64,000 nucleotides of DNA from Leisingera aquimarina DSM 24565 (GTDB lineage Bacteria; Pseudomonadota; Alphaproteobacteria; Rhodobacterales; Rhodobacteraceae). Shown piece after piece: positions 40,819 through 51,395 of the stretch. Under the pieces are notes generated by a model. That model did no database searches, was not told the DNA's origin, and saw nothing but the letters and a program-made list of their open reading frames with translations. The position numbers were made by a program, and so were the translations under genes. The number at the start of each line of letters is the position of its first letter. The stretch's first letter is position 1. The stretch covers positions 3,510,094 to 3,574,093 of the forward strand of contig NZ_KI421504.1 of the NCBI RefSeq assembly GCF_000473165.1, given 5' to 3'.

Positions 40819-40980
40819 TCAGATTGCAACCGGTGCCTTGACGTCCGGTCCGGGATCATAATTCAGGATCCTGAAATCACCGGCGATGAAATCGAAGAAT
40901 GCGCCGGCCTGCCGCCTGACCGGCATATGACACATATATTGAACGGTTTTCCGGTCCTTTTCGAATTGGCTGTTGCCGCT
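40819..40980 (-). pseudogene. C-terminal relic of a second thymidylate synthase
   Basis: The minus-strand frame ending at 40819 reads ...FFDFIAGDFRILNYDPGPDVKAPVAI and a stop. This lines up without gaps with the universal ThyA C-terminus (FDYxFEDFEIEGYDPHPxIKAPVAI in E. coli). The frame continues upstream to a stop at 41053 but loses recognisable similarity before residue 25 of the relic, and no upstream catalytic half is present. It differs clearly from the C-terminus of the intact thyA at 42057 (YDPHPHIKADVAV), so it is not a recent copy of that gene. It directly precedes folA by 18 bases, the normal place of thyA in this lineage. Confidence 0.75.
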
Positions 40981-42056: not shown

Positions 42057-42953
42057 TTACACCGCAACGTCGGCCTTGATGTGAGGATGAGGGTCGTAAC
42101 CTTCGACTTCAAAGTCCTCAATCCGGTAGTCGTCGATACTCTCCGCACGTTTGGTCAGCGATATTTTCGGCAAAGGACGGGGGTCACGTGCCAGTTGCTC
42201 CCGCGCTTGATCGAAATGATTGCGGTAGAGGTGCACATCACCACCAACCCAAACCAATTCACCGGGGCGAAGCCCCGCTTGTTGCGCCAGCATCAGCTGA
42301 AGCGCAGAAGCCCCCACATAGTTGAAGGCAGCACCCAGCAGCAAATCGACCGACCTCTGGAACAAAAGGCAATTCAGGCGCCCATCGGAGGTCACATGAT
42401 ACTGATAAACCATATGGCAAGGCGGCAGCGCCATCTCTTCCAGTTCCGCAACGTTCCAGCCGTGGAACAGCAGACGCCGGCTCGCAGGGGTTTCGCGCAG
42501 CGAACGGATCAGCGTCTCGATCTGGTCATGTTCGCGGCCATCAGATCCCATCCAGCGCCGCCACTGTTTGCCGTATACGGGGCCAAGCTCACCCCATCGG
42601 GCGGCAAAACCGTCGTCCTCGGCAACCCTGCGCTCGAAGTCCTCTTGCGTGATATCCTCGCCTGTCTCGCGGCGATAAGCCGCCAGCGGCCAGTCTGTCC
42701 AGATCCGGACATTTTCCCGCAGCAGCGGCTGGATATTGGTTCCCCCGGTCAGGAACCAAAGCATTTCCTTGATTGCGGTTTTCCAATAGACGCGCTTGGT
42801 CGTCAGAATAGGCGCAGTGCCATCCGACAGATCAAAGCGGACCATGGCGCCGAACAGCGAGCGGGTGCCGACTCCCGTTCTGTCAACCCGCTCATCCCCG
42901 TATTCAAGGACTCGTTCGATCAGGTCCAGGTACTGGTATTCCGGGTGCCGCAT
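42057..42953 (-). CDS. thyA: Thymidylate synthase
   Basis: A 298-residue thymidylate synthase that methylates dUMP with methylene-tetrahydrofolate. It begins MRHPEYQYLDLIERVLEYGDERVDRTGVGT. It contains the long-form insert (TWPLAAYRRETGEDITQEDFERRV region), the catalytic cysteine in ALPPCHMVYQYHV and the dUMP-binding RSVDLLLGAAFNY. It ends EDFEVEGYDPHPHIKADVAV. The length is of the longer ThyA type rather than the 264-residue E. coli type. It is oriented toward folA but separated from it by 1.25 kb of decayed DNA and a ThyA C-terminal relic. Confidence 0.96.
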   Translation of the reverse strand: MRHPEYQYLDLIERVLEYGDERVDRTGVGTRSLFGAMVRFDLSDGTAPILTTKRVYWKTAIKEMLWFLTGGTNIQPLLRENVRIWTDWPLAAYRRETGEDITQEDFERRVAEDDGFAARWGELGPVYGKQWRRWMGSDGREHDQIETLIRSLRETPASRRLLFHGWNVAELEEMALPPCHMVYQYHVTSDGRLNCLLFQRSVDLLLGAAFNYVGASALQLMLAQQAGLRPGELVWVGGDVHLYRNHFDQAREQLARDPRPLPKISLTKRAESIDDYRIEDFEVEGYDPHPHIKADVAV

Positions 42954-43371
42954 GCCTCTGTCTCCACATTTTTTTTGCCATCAACAGAAAACTGTGTGGC
43001 AGCCCTTCTCAATCATAATGAATAACACGTGCCAGGCGATAGCTCATTCTTCTGTCCCAAGGACGTTCCACAACGCTTTGTGAAACAGAAAGCCGCGGCG
43101 CCGGCCCAGATACCGATGCATGGCTGCTTTCCTCGACATGCACCCGAAATTCACACCCCGGCATATCGGCTGCGCCATCAGGCGCCAAGATCAAAAAACA
43201 CCTCCACGCCGTTCCTTTCATACAACATATGCGCAGCCTGGCCTGAATTCGAGCTACATGCAGGTAGCGTATCCGCCACGGTTGCGTCCAAATGCCAACG
43301 GCTCAATTGACAACAGGCCAGCGCGGACCGAAGGTAGCGCAAAACGATAAAACATATTGAGGTAGAGGCAG
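42954..43371. other. Intergenic region between thyA and the surface lipoprotein gene
   Basis: No gene is supported in these 418 bases. A poly-T tract at 42970-42977 lies just upstream of thyA. TTGACA occurs at 43304 but no -10 hexamer sits 16-18 bases away. A small dyad GCTAC-N6-GTAGC lies at 43252-43267. GAGGTAGAGGC at 43362 serves as ribosome binding region for the lipoprotein gene. Confidence 0.55.
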
Positions 43372-44292
43372 ATGAGGCGCTATTGGCTAGGGCTCGCGGC
43401 AGCGTCCGTGCTGTCCGCATGCGGCGGCGGCAATCCGTTCATCACGACGACGGATGACCCCACAGATGATCCGACCACCACCATCCCCGAAGCACTGGCA
43501 AACGACCTCGAGAGCGTCGATTATGACCCAGGCAACCAAACACTGACTGTTACTGGTGTTGGCTTGGATGAAACGCCCTTTACCGCGACCTATGTCCGCA
43601 AGCCTGCTTTAGACCGCAATGGCTACGAGGCCTATGCCGTTCAGGATAACGCATTGACTGAGCACTCGACTGCCTATGTGCGTCAGACAGAAGGTGGTTA
43701 CGCTGCTGTCGTTGTGACAGGCGGACAGTTCGGCACTTACCAGGGCGGCACGACCTACGGGCGCACCGGCAGCTTTTCCGCTCCCGATACGGACGCGGGG
43801 GCTGGCGGTATCGTCAGCTATGCCGGCACCTATGTGGGCCTGTTGAACATTGACGGCGACGGCGGCGACTTGCTCACTCCGGCTCCCGGCACCGACCCTT
43901 CAATTCTCCCCGGCCAATCCGCTGAAGTTACCGGTGATGCCTTCATCAATGCCGATTTCACACAGGACAGTGAGGTCAAAGGCCGGATCTACAATCGCCG
44001 GATCACCGACCTGCCTGCAACAGCCGTCGAGGATCTGACCCTCATGAACACGGCGATTGCGTCAGACGGTTCGTTTACAGGCGCTGTCAATGCTGGAGGC
44101 ACAAGCGTGGGCGAATACGGCGGCGTCTTTTCGGGTACGGATGCCGCAGCGGTGGCGGGATCGGTCCACGCGACAGGCCATATTGGAGCCTTTTCGGGGA
44201 ATACCCCCCCGATCGAGGAGTACGGGGTCTTTGTGCTCGGCTCTTGCGATGGTGCCAGTCCCGACCCGGTCTGCAACCAGCCTGACCCTTAA
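43372..44292 (+). CDS. TbpB-like surface lipoprotein, probable Slam cargo
   Basis: A 306-residue lipoprotein. The signal peptide MRRYWLGLAAASVLSAC has a clear lipobox, LSAC, with the lipidated cysteine at residue 17, followed by a flexible GGGNPFITTTDDPTDDPTTT linker of low complexity. The C-terminal half is Gly/Ala/Ser-rich beta sequence. Its motif GEYGGVFSGTDAAAVAGSVHA resembles the TbpB-like beta-barrel segment GGxFxGxxAxExGG used by Slam-dependent proteins. It ends in a CDG...CNQ pair that may form a disulphide. It lies three bases before a Slam-like gene, so it is probably the surface-exported cargo. The ligand is unknown. Confidence 0.75.
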   Translation: MRRYWLGLAAASVLSACGGGNPFITTTDDPTDDPTTTIPEALANDLESVDYDPGNQTLTVTGVGLDETPFTATYVRKPALDRNGYEAYAVQDNALTEHSTAYVRQTEGGYAAVVVTGGQFGTYQGGTTYGRTGSFSAPDTDAGAGGIVSYAGTYVGLLNIDGDGGDLLTPAPGTDPSILPGQSAEVTGDAFINADFTQDSEVKGRIYNRRITDLPATAVEDLTLMNTAIASDGSFTGAVNAGGTSVGEYGGVFSGTDAAAVAGSVHATGHIGAFSGNTPPIEEYGVFVLGSCDGASPDPVCNQPDP

Positions 44293-44295
44293 ACC

Positions 44296-45729
44296 ATGCA
44301 CAAGGCCACCGCGGCTCTCTTTGGGCTGACCCTGGCAACGGCGCAGCCCCACGCGCAAGAAGCACCAGCGCCGCAGATGCATCTGTCGGTCCAGCAAGGG
44401 CACGCCTTGGGTGCGCATGCGCTGAACTCCGGCAATCCCCGACTGGCCTTGCGGATCTCCAACGCCTTGCTGCAGGCCGACCGTAAAAACCATGCGGCCT
44501 GGCACCTGCAGGCCGCCGCCCATGCTAAAATCGGCCAACCCGGCGAAGGCCGGAAATCCGCCGCACGCGCCTTCCGCTTTGCACCGGACGGCGCTGCAAA
44601 GTACCAGATGGCGCAGCTTGCTTCCCGCCTGGCTTTTCAGAGCGGCAGCCCGACTTTGTCGCAATACTGGCTGCGCCGCACGGCTGTGTACGCGCCCGAC
44701 GACAAAGCCGAAACCCTGATCGCCAAGGATTACGAGACCCTCCGGCGCATAAATCCTTGGTCCTTCCGGCTAAGCGGTGGGGTGAAGCCATCAAATAATG
44801 TTAACGGCGGTTCGGATGCAGCCACGCAGGAGATTGACGGGCTCTCCTCCCATGTGAACAGGCTTGGGCCAAGAGCCGTTGCGTTGTCAGGTGTTACCGG
44901 TACGCTGGACGCAGGCATCAGCCGCCGCTTGAGGCAAAACGAAACAAGCCTGACGACCTTAAGTGGCCGCCTCTATATTCAGCGTGTGGCTCTGTCGTCC
45001 AATGCCAAAGCAAAGGCCGCTGAATTGGCCCGGCTTACTGGCACAACGGTGCCGCGCAACTCCGAATTCGGCTCCACTTATGGTGAAATCACCTTAACCC
45101 ATGCTTTTGCCGCAGGACCCAAGAATAAGGGAGGCAGCGCCCGGATTTCCGTGACCAGTGCAACTTCCTGGTATGGCGGGGAACGGAGCTATGATCTGGC
45201 AAAGCTGACCGCCGCACGCAGTTGGGCGCTATCACCGCAGATGCGTTTCACTCTTGACGGAAGCGCCGAACACCGTCTGAATCCTCGGTATGCTTCTTTG
45301 GACGCAGATGTGTTTGGCTTAGGCGCTTCGCTCTCCCGGAAACTGGCCAATGGTGACAACCTGAACTTCACACTTGGCCTGCGCGATACCCACGCGGAAA
45401 GCGACAGCTCCACCACGAAATCCGCAACACTCAGGGTCGGCTATACCTTTGGTCAGAAAGTAGGGCCGGTTAAGGTCAGCACTGGGCTGATCCTAGGGGC
45501 CGCCGACTACCCCACCTATATCTTCAACAATGGAACAGACTGGGTTCCTATTCCTGGCGGGCGGCAGGACCATTCCGCTTACGCCGATTTGAACCTATTC
45601 TTTGAAGACTATGACTATGCCGGTTTTGCGCCGATGCTGCGATTGCGTGCCGGAAAAAAATTCTCGAACCATAGCCGCTTTGAAAGCTCGGAATTCTCTG
45701 TCTCCCTGGGCATCGAATCAAAATTCTGA
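44296..45729 (+). CDS. Slam-type surface lipoprotein assembly modifier (outer membrane, TPR plus barrel)
   Basis: A 477-residue outer-membrane protein. A signal peptide (about residues 1-21, ending PHAQ) is followed by TPR-like helices (LALRISNALLQADRKNHAAW, KSAARAFRFAPDGAAKY, ALSPQMR). From about residue 155 to the end it is an alternating beta-barrel (DUF560-like) ending in the outer-membrane C-terminal phenylalanine (SVSLGIESKF). This TPR-plus-barrel layout is that of Slam proteins, the type XI secretion translocators that move lipoproteins to the cell surface. It starts three bases after the lipoprotein gene, so the two are co-translated. Confidence 0.75.
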   Translation: MHKATAALFGLTLATAQPHAQEAPAPQMHLSVQQGHALGAHALNSGNPRLALRISNALLQADRKNHAAWHLQAAAHAKIGQPGEGRKSAARAFRFAPDGAAKYQMAQLASRLAFQSGSPTLSQYWLRRTAVYAPDDKAETLIAKDYETLRRINPWSFRLSGGVKPSNNVNGGSDAATQEIDGLSSHVNRLGPRAVALSGVTGTLDAGISRRLRQNETSLTTLSGRLYIQRVALSSNAKAKAAELARLTGTTVPRNSEFGSTYGEITLTHAFAAGPKNKGGSARISVTSATSWYGGERSYDLAKLTAARSWALSPQMRFTLDGSAEHRLNPRYASLDADVFGLGASLSRKLANGDNLNFTLGLRDTHAESDSSTTKSATLRVGYTFGQKVGPVKVSTGLILGAADYPTYIFNNGTDWVPIPGGRQDHSAYADLNLFFEDYDYAGFAPMLRLRAGKKFSNHSRFESSEFSVSLGIESKF

Positions 45730-45806: not shown

Positions 45807-46235
45807 ATGCCCCTCACATATCTGCACACCATGGTTCGGGTGAAGGATCTGGAAAAATCGATGGCATTTTACTCTCTTCTGGGCCTCCGCGAGACCCGCC
45901 GATGGGAGAATGAACAGGGCCGGTTCACCCTGGTTTTCATGGCTCCTCCGGGCCAGGAGGAGGCGCCGCTGGAGCTCACCTATAACTGGGACGGCGATGA
46001 TGCGCTGCCTGATGACAGCCGCCATTTCGGGCATCTCGCCTATGGTGTTGATGATATCTATGCCGCCTGCCAGCACCTGATGGACAATGGCGTCACCATC
46101 AACCGCCCGCCCCGCGACGGGCACATGGCCTTTGTGCGCTCGCCCGACAATGTCTCGATCGAACTGCTGCAGAACGGCGAGGCGCTGGCTCCGGCAGAAC
46201 CCTGGGCCGGCATGGAAAACACCGGCCAGTGGTAA
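45807..46235 (+). CDS. gloA: Lactoylglutathione lyase (glyoxalase I)
   Basis: A 142-residue metal-dependent glyoxalase I that converts the methylglyoxal-glutathione adduct to lactoylglutathione. The family start LTYLHTMVRVKDLEKSMAFYSLLG, the metal-ligand glutamate in PLELTYNWD, the histidine in RHFGHLAYGVDDI and the second glutamate in NVSIELLQNG are all present. The start follows AGGAGAAA seven bases upstream. It is a stand-alone gene after the Slam operon. Confidence 0.93.
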   Translation: MPLTYLHTMVRVKDLEKSMAFYSLLGLRETRRWENEQGRFTLVFMAPPGQEEAPLELTYNWDGDDALPDDSRHFGHLAYGVDDIYAACQHLMDNGVTINRPPRDGHMAFVRSPDNVSIELLQNGEALAPAEPWAGMENTGQW

Positions 46236-50409: not shown

Positions 50410-50531
50410 TTCCAATTGACGCAATCCTAGCATCACATCTTGACCGCTGCTGCCTGAGCAGCCCCGCACCCGCAGAACCCGAGGTGCACCGGTACATCCC
50501 GCTTTTGTTCTCAGTTTCAACAGGAATCCTT

Positions 50532-51395
50532 ATGCAAAAACCCATTCTGTCTCTGATCGCCGCAACTGTTTCCACCCTGCTTGCCGGGACTGCAGCCAAT
50601 GCTGTCGGCGCGGGTGCCGTTGCGGACAGTGTGATTGCCGAACAGCGCGCAGCCCTCGCGGCCAAGACCAAGGGCGCAGGTTCCGGTCCCCAGTCACCGC
50701 GCGACCTAGACGCCGCCGCTGGCAGCAACACGCGCAGCTTTGAGGCGGCCCCGGATTATGCAGAAATGAACCTGTGCAACATCCACTTTCACGAAAACGC
50801 CGAACACCGCGGCGGTGAATTCACTACTTTCGCCGGCAATGGCGACGGCCACGGCTATGGCACCGGCTACAAATACGGCGGCACGCTGACCGCCGCAGAA
50901 CTGGCATCGCTCGACCATCCCATCGGCGCAACCGAACACGGCGACCTGCAGCCCGGAGACACGATCGAGGTGCATTACGTCCACTCGACCGCCCAGGTGC
51001 AGCCCGGCCCGACCCTTGGGTCCTGCCTCAGCGATGCGATCAAAAACCCGCAGCTGCGGGTCGAAGCGCAGGTTTTTGTGCTGGTGAACGACGAAAATGC
51101 GCTCGACTTCGGCGCACTGGCCCACTTGGGCAAAGCAAACGGGCTGCATCAGGCCAGCAATATTCCCAGCGATACCGGCACACCGGTGCAATATGCCGGC
51201 TCCACCACCGGCCCCGGCTATGACGAGGACGGCTCCCCCTTCCAAGTCTCCTGGAGTGCGCGCCCCAAGGTCGCCAAGGTGAACATTCATTCGGTTGGAA
51301 AGTGGCTGGAAGACAATGTCTTTCTGGAGGATCACGCCCACGGTGTTTGCAACCTGATCACGAACCCGGATCTGCTGTCAGGCATCAGCCGCTAG
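50532..51395 (+). CDS. Delta-class carbonic anhydrase-like protein
   Basis: A 287-residue secreted protein with a signal peptide (MQKPILSLIAATVSTLLAG, cleaved near AANA). The motif NLCNIHFHENAEHRGGEF (about residues 78-95) carries the Cys/His set resembling delta-class carbonic anhydrases first known from diatoms. Later conserved pieces are HYVHSTAQVQPG and the C-terminal EDHAHGVCNL. If functional it hydrates CO2 in the periplasm. The start at MQKPIL has AGGA nearby and removes an upstream non-signal extension. A strong terminator follows. Confidence 0.72.
   Translation: MQKPILSLIAATVSTLLAGTAANAVGAGAVADSVIAEQRAALAAKTKGAGSGPQSPRDLDAAAGSNTRSFEAAPDYAEMNLCNIHFHENAEHRGGEFTTFAGNGDGHGYGTGYKYGGTLTAAELASLDHPIGATEHGDLQPGDTIEVHYVHSTAQVQPGPTLGSCLSDAIKNPQLRVEAQVFVLVNDENALDFGALAHLGKANGLHQASNIPSDTGTPVQYAGSTTGPGYDEDGSPFQVSWSARPKVAKVNIHSVGKWLEDNVFLEDHAHGVCNLITNPDLLSGISR

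Follow-up and report, generated by a model that had tools for sequence, protein, structure and literature searches.

A probable two-gene type XI secretion (Slam) unit at the thymidylate synthase-gloA site of Leisingera aquimarina

Does a lipoprotein gene that lies directly before the gene for a putative outer-membrane barrel form a secretion system with it, and what would such a system do outside the cell? This question is raised by a locus in a 64,000-nucleotide (nt) stretch of the Leisingera aquimarina DSM 24565 genome (contig NZ_KI421504.1, positions 3,510,094 to 3,574,093; hereafter the window). The two genes encode proteins of 306 and 477 amino acids (aa) at 43372-44292 and 44296-45729 (stop codons included), both on the plus strand, with a stop-to-start gap of 3 nt, exactly the spacing given in a preliminary description of this DNA. 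We conclude that they very likely constitute a complete two-gene type XI secretion system (T11SS), or Slam unit, whose cargo is tethered to the cell surface, which is co-inherited, usually at the site between a thymidylate synthase gene (thy) and gloA, and which is lost or replaced as a block. Computation provides the gene layout, Slam family membership, both predicted folds, the co-occurrence of the two genes, the preferred site, the empty site, and one clear replacement. Because both proteins have side-by-side matches in 14 of the 20 other genomes of the genus that we searched (in G001, the lipoprotein match covers the first 35 residues only), the layout is not a chance one; a search of the L. 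aquimarina genome itself returned one match for each protein. The locus is a real T11SS pair, of a class already in print (PMC12282271; here and below, statements on published work refer to the available portions of the cited papers).

The 477-aa protein, which has a single match in its genome, matches the Pfam SlipAM/DUF560 family of Slam-type outer-membrane translocators (PF04575) with a score of 24.4 bits (cut-off 22) over residues 261-464. We modeled its structure with AlphaFold2 from a nine-sequence alignment, obtaining a mean predicted local distance difference test score (pLDDT) of 79. The model has helices at residues 32-152 (44389-44751, plus strand, as are all features below unless stated otherwise), a predicted periplasmic tetratricopeptide repeat (TPR) domain that also has Foldseek and profile matches to TPR proteins. 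These are followed by 14 long strands at residues 155-475 (44758-45720), and the protein ends in Phe477 (...ESKF); both the 14-strand barrel and the terminal Phe had been foreseen in the preliminary description. Foldseek matches of the whole model were TPR proteins, TPR-barrel exporters (BcsC and PelB), and porins, and a Slam structure was absent among the 50 listed matches. NCBIfam short-chain-dehydrogenase models also matched the barrel protein, at 23 bits against a cut-off of 249, which we took as chance.

The 306-aa protein begins with the lipoprotein signal MRRYWLGLAAASVLSAC (residues 1-17, 43372-43422), whose lipobox, LSAC, would place the acylated residue at Cys17, a position that is invariant in our alignment of 22 cargos (22 of 24 listed cargo references entered). 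After the cysteine come GGGNPF and a low-complexity, Thr/Asp-rich stalk (residues 18-46, 43423-43509; pLDDT <50), in keeping with the lipobox and stalk described earlier. In the AlphaFold2 model, eight strands span residues 147-291 (43810-44244), a probable Slam-targeting barrel; the first strand (147-159) has a pLDDT of 58 to 69, and the C-terminal part at residues 181-290 is better predicted than the rest (block mean pLDDT 66 to 91). When we compared this model with the Protein Data Bank (PDB) using Foldseek, all 50 listed matches came from entries for fHbp, TbpB, HphA/hemophilin, or the C-terminal domain of NHBA (best E 4.7e-6), which fits the eight-strand, TbpB-type C-terminal half that had been proposed. 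NHBA is a Slam/T11SS cargo. The papers cited here report the same of fHbp, TbpB, and hemophilins. The predicted fold thus supports a Slam-cargo type for the 306-aa protein, and together with the SlipAM score and the predicted fold of the translocator it supports the reading of the locus as a Slam-type pair.

Curated domain models miss most of the 22 sampled cargos: one matches Pfam FHBP_C (1.1e-6), one matches TbpB_B_D (4.3e-5), and six match NCBIfam slam_lipo (E <=0.01). Searching the PDB with a sequence profile of the cargo family found no T11SS cargo. Across the loci described below, a simple rule finds a lipobox in 81 of 85 cargos, one of which (L180) looks false. A motif after the cysteine, [NQ]P[FLWIHV] (window example 43420-43440), is present in 51 of 66 cargos from other genera vs 2 of 99 crude control open reading frames (ORFs) with a lipobox, given a rule drawn after viewing the sequences and controls that are mostly not proven genes. 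This NPF-like motif could be a lineage tag of these surface lipoproteins.

The translocator model also bears on a different explanation, in which the 477-aa protein is a polysaccharide exporter of the BcsC or PelB type that happens to lie beside an unrelated lipoprotein gene. BcsC and PelB are the best full-length matches of the model and share its layout of TPR domain plus outer-membrane barrel, but their barrels have 16 strands against 14 in the model. Moreover, the SlipAM score is above its cut-off, the ten neighbouring ORFs that we scanned include no glycan synthase, and pairing with a lipoprotein of the Slam-cargo fold is near strict (see below). We consider a polysaccharide exporter extremely improbable, rejecting it on family, strand number, and pairing.

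If the pair is a Slam unit, its mechanism may be drawn by analogy with tested relatives. The Slam1 and Slam2 systems of Neisseria, with the cargos TbpB, LbpB, HpuA, and fHbp, have, as here, a TPR domain plus a 14-strand DUF560 barrel and cargo with a C-terminal 8-strand barrel (PMC5449769, PMC9090332, PMC8406197); unlike them, the window locus has no TonB receptor gene, and sequence similarity is low (the window cargo is without a Pfam match). The 306-aa pre-lipoprotein would receive its acyl group at Cys17 and travel to the outer membrane, where the 477-aa Slam, with its periplasmic TPR domain and 14-strand barrel, would move it across. The C-terminal 8-strand barrel of the cargo would be the part that Slam recognises, and the cargo would end on the cell surface, held by its lipid and stalk. 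In PMC9090332, the unfolded lipoprotein is moved by Slam with Skp as holdase, and Slam1 needs the Skp chaperone; an OmpH/Skp gene is present in the L. aquimarina genome. Slam and cargo would be inherited as one unit, usually between the thymidylate synthase gene and gloA.

What the displayed protein would do is the least certain part of this account. TbpB and the hemophilins suggest nutrient capture, in which the lipoprotein binds heme, metal, or a cofactor and passes it to a TonB-dependent receptor whose gene lies elsewhere. The structural matches include entries for TbpB and hemophilin (HphA), TonB receptor genes occur in 120 of 185 Slam-lipoprotein clusters in the available text of PMC5449769, and the L. 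aquimarina genome has four PF00593 matches at E <=0.001, two of them above the cut-off. These matches lie on contigs C2 and C7, however, and the PF00593 search of the genome found no TonB-dependent receptor on the contig of the pair, which agrees with the earlier statement that none is adjacent. In addition, the pair fills nearly all of the thy-gloA interval in Slam-positive loci, leaving scant room for another large gene, and PMC12282271 describes TonB receptors as rare near cluster 3 Slams. The top-ranked cargo matches are to fHbp rather than hemophilin, in a PDB that is very rich in fHbp entries. On balance we regard nutrient capture as unlikely. Because the TonB receptor matches of the genome lie on other contigs, a stand-alone surface binder like fHbp or NilC appears likelier than uptake. 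The role outside the cell would then most likely be to bind or recognise a surface, a polymer, a host, or a phage, with no coupling to TonB. NilB and NilC of Xenorhabdus (PMC9100927, PMC8406197) are, like the window pair, a Slam homologue with one lipoprotein and are thought to be horizontally acquired; a difference from the window pair is that both nil genes were shown to be necessary for nematode colonisation.

Published work provides a context for the locus. Grossman et al. (2025; PMC12282271) list for the marine cluster 3 T11SS of Rhodobacteraceae/Roseobacteraceae the same kinds of neighbour that we find here: as in the window, the gene for the T11SS outer-membrane protein (OMP) lies beside thymidylate synthase and lactoylglutathione lyase genes. 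Their cluster 3 cargo likewise resembles the window cargo, being a signal peptidase II (SPII) lipoprotein of 282 to 375 aa with a predicted C-terminal 8-strand barrel. Unlike the published locus, the window has thyA instead of thyX and no adjacent DUF1194 (the DUF1194 match of this genome is at 90.8 kb on contig C1, and the pair is at 3.55 Mb on the same contig). From taxon and synteny, we infer that the pair belongs to the marine cluster 3 class; secretion by any T11SS of this cluster is, according to the abstract of that paper, not yet demonstrated. Its available text gives a predicted lipoprotein cargo in 10 of the 11 strains with a syntenic locus and describes cargo as rare across the whole cluster (0.21 per OMP).

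We assembled a set of 161 loci, consisting of the window and of gloA with up to 6 kb on either side from 160 further genomes (20 Leisingera and 140 of other genera), and ran iterated profile searches on them; for cargo, the profile started from the window cargo and was iterated on these same loci. Because the loci are anchored on gloA, adjacency to gloA itself is not separable in this set. Slam is present in 88 of the 161 loci, and cargo was found in 84 of those 88, with every one of the 84 pairs on one strand. Of the four Slam loci without a found cargo, L108 and L150 are at contig ends, and L105 and L191 are real misses, the Slam of L191 being truncated too. For comparisons between genera we used one locus per genus; 8 of the 149 gloA-positive genera are not in the set, and exclusion of 13 of 141 loci for short flanks left 128. 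Cargo is present in 64 of the 65 Slam-positive loci among these and in 1 of the 63 Slam-negative loci, the orphan being L145, with a weak score of 38 bits. The distance from thy to gloA has a median of 2630 nt with Slam vs 116 nt without. The count of 64 out of 65 agrees with the 10 of 11 syntenic loci of PMC12282271 and contrasts with its cluster-wide 0.21 per OMP; cargo of cluster 3 looked mostly missing in that paper, and the present counts point to nearly universal cargo at this site.

A family-wide profile search, in which the best 11 candidates per genome were scored, detected Slam in 92 of 150 genera at E <=1e-6. Among 83 Slam matches at E <=1e-50, 74 adjoin gloA by coordinates. The matches away from gloA are in G075, G108, G160, G186, and G188, with a second copy in G176, two extra copies in G150, and a contig fragment in G141.

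The same loci allow the neighbours to be weighed. PMC12282271 suggests for cluster 3 that the T11SS works with them, either in folate/one-carbon and methylglyoxal metabolism (cofactor or nickel uptake) or with DUF1194 as the real cargo or a partner, and reports that, of 145 loci, 102 contain DUF1194, 89 a glyoxalase, and 77 a thymidylate synthase; apart from DUF1194, the window has the same kinds of neighbour. Compared with Slam-free loci, however, most of these neighbours remain when Slam is absent. DUF1194 is found beside (after) gloA in 47 of 65 Slam-positive vs 37 of 63 Slam-negative loci (Fisher P = 0.14; this and the following two tests are without kinship correction), and in Leisingera in none of 15 Slam-positive and none of 6 Slam-negative loci. 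In Slam-free genera, gloA loci such as L064, L067, L072, and L077 carry between one and three copies of DUF1194 behind gloA with no Slam at the site, which gives DUF1194 a tie to gloA of its own. The presence of gloA is uninformative because it occurs in 149 of 150 genera. Thymidylate synthase before gloA (64/65 vs 55/63, P = 0.016) and aspB after it (46/65 vs 29/63, P = 0.007) are somewhat more common with Slam, and these excesses, though small, count against a purely positional account. Because DUF1194 and thy are found around gloA whether or not Slam is present, we read the published co-occurrence of neighbours with T11SS as largely positional: what the neighbours indicate is the site, and the tie of DUF1194 is to gloA, not to Slam. 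These counts weaken any interpretation of the locus that rests on its metabolic neighbours and on DUF1194. We therefore consider a functional link to folate, glyoxal, or DUF1194 very improbable and largely reject it, with the thy and aspB excesses left unexplained.

The Slam unit is not fixed at this site. Of 21 Leisingera genomes, 15 carry the pair and 6 lack it; in these six there is no Slam match at E <=0.001, and thyA and gloA are adjacent. A tree of the flanking genes puts the Slam-free Leisingera genomes in two places (2 changes). The Slam genes of L049 (G006), L112 (G076), and L183 (G194) have an internal stop or a split frame, suggesting that the system has been lost more than once.

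Replacement is clearest in G001. This genome is 87% identical to G011 until 35 codons into the cargo gene, there is then no alignment until 29 nt before gloA, and the identity returns to 87%; the Slam and cargo of G001 are closest to those of other genera (56% and 63%). Judging from this alignment, the resident promoter and signal peptide thus seem to have stayed in place in G001 while the remainder of the pair was replaced. We built trees with Leisingera and other genera (of 20 non-Leisingera rows chosen, the 17 with all genes), having noticed the G001 replacement before the clade test. The Slam tree rejects Leisingera as one clade (approximately unbiased test, P = 6e-6), and the flank tree keeps it as one. 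The pair is lost or replaced as a block, presumably via recombination in the flanking genes. A comparison of G001 with other Leisingera is a natural swap that could be used for finding the binding partner of the cargo.

The two genes also diverge faster than their flanks. Mean identity between genera is 30% for Slam and 32% for cargo, compared with 75 to 78% for gloA, marR, and aspB. In the 47 genera that have all five genes, distances for Slam and cargo are correlated (Mantel rho 0.48, P = 0.0005), and the correlation with the flanks is low for both Slam (rho 0.17, P = 0.015) and cargo (rho 0.04, P = 0.18). Within Leisingera, the median synonymous divergence (dS) is 1.36 for Slam and 1.57 for cargo vs 0.50 to 0.67 for the flanks, and the median ratio of nonsynonymous to synonymous divergence (dN/dS) is 0.18 and 0.22 vs 0.05 to 0.09; for this ratio we excluded L044 pairs and limited dS to 0.02 to 1.5, which retained 58 (Slam) and 33 (cargo) of 91 pairs. 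Because dS is elevated as well, we read the rapid divergence as exchange plus weaker constraint, and we rejected positive selection, both median ratios being well under 1. In the closest trio (the window, G002, and G003), the dS of Slam and cargo is 0.13 to 0.22, within the flank range of 0.04 to 0.44; the excess therefore arises between groups, as import would give. A variable N-terminal effector region in the cargo was also considered and is unsupported: the barrel region has the higher dN/dS (0.27 vs 0.15), and conservation between genera is about the same in both regions (0.41 vs 0.44).

Several observations weigh against the reading of this locus as an exchangeable Slam unit. The SlipAM score of the 477-aa protein exceeds its cut-off by 2.4 bits only, and 17 of 26 diverse homologues match SlipAM at E <=0.01. 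The cargo has no Pfam match, and its match to NCBIfam slam_lipo (NF041636), at 20.3 bits, is far under the cut-off of 80; we therefore do not file it under NF041636 and assign it to the broader cargo class by its predicted fold and position. The Foldseek TM-scores of the cargo are modest (0.25 to 0.36 by query and 0.19 to 0.60 by target), and its model is weak overall (pLDDT 57), being of low confidence outside the C-terminal barrel and poor in the N-terminal region. Two loci, L105 and L191, hold Slam without a recognisable cargo. The flanking genes agree poorly with each other (rho -0.03 to 0.24), so the low correlation between Slam and the flanks is weak evidence alone. Finally, the Leisingera clade in the flank tree has a support of just 84, which is not decisive, and both trees come from quick searches and have long branches.

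What is new here is the near-universal cargo at this site, the mainly positional account of the published co-occurrence, and the exchange behaviour of the unit. A broader proposal is that in Rhodobacteraceae the thy-gloA site serves as a dedicated locus for exchanging surface proteins. Recombination in conserved flanks would swap either whole units of Slam and cargo between genera or, behind the resident promoter and signal peptide, the cargo body together with its Slam, diversifying proteins that recognise algae, animal hosts, particles, or phages. We offer this tentatively, leaning slightly against it, and the link that it makes between exchange and recognition may or may not hold; if the proposal is true, the locus would be the roseobacter counterpart of variable surface-antigen loci. 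Our literature search, which covered the titles and abstract openings listed and left most subscription papers and preprints outside, found no description of unit exchange at the thy-gloA site; PMC12282271 was the one title on marine T11SS in the same search.

The region upstream of the cargo gene is itself conserved. A 24-nt block, GGTAGCGYATCCGCCACGGTTGCG (43263-43286), lies approximately 86 nt before the cargo start and recurs with few differences in 15 Slam-positive Leisingera loci, including G001, where it is retained despite the swapped cargo body. Allowing <=6 mismatches, 16 of the 85 cargo loci have it within 260 nt before the cargo gene, and 3 of the 76 cargo-free loci have it at any position. 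It occurs once in the L. aquimarina genome at <=3 mismatches (a control pattern occurs 0 times), and we rejected a shared regulon given this single occurrence. Across 67 upstream regions, a 13-nt core of the block is found in 3 at <=2 mismatches (0.35 expected) and in 11 at <=3 (2.75 expected). A TTGAC box is common to the 15 Leisingera upstream regions; in the window it is part of TTGACA at 43307-43312, by resemblance a putative -35 element of a promoter that would belong to the pair and diverge from thyA. Across genera, TTGACTTT is present in 34 of 67 cargo upstream regions vs <=7 for any 8-mer in 20 Markov shuffles.

The borders of the unit are formed by genes that lie outside the system. 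On the left is thyA (42057-42953, minus strand; Pfam PF00303), identified as the border from the thy-gloA spacing and accompanied on the same strand by a dihydrofolate reductase (DHFR) gene. On the right is gloA, of the glyoxalase family (45807-46235, plus strand; Pfam PF00903), with similarity between alleles resuming approximately 29 to 43 nt before it when the unit is swapped or empty. Pfam matches place a MarR-type regulator, a helix-turn-helix (HTH) protein, and a class I/II aminotransferase (called aspB) after gloA. Rfam and tRNA scans of the window gave no match. Beside the DHFR gene, at 40822-40935 on the minus strand, is a remnant of a second type of thymidylate synthase, comprising its last 38 residues and 50% identical to ThyA of the Slam-free Leisingera genome G007 (E 3e-10), and G014 has both types of thymidylate synthase side by side. 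It seems that the 298-aa type encoded at 42057-42953 has taken the place of the resident thyA. Farther along the window, at 50484-51395, is a gene for a 303-aa delta-class carbonic anhydrase (PF10563).

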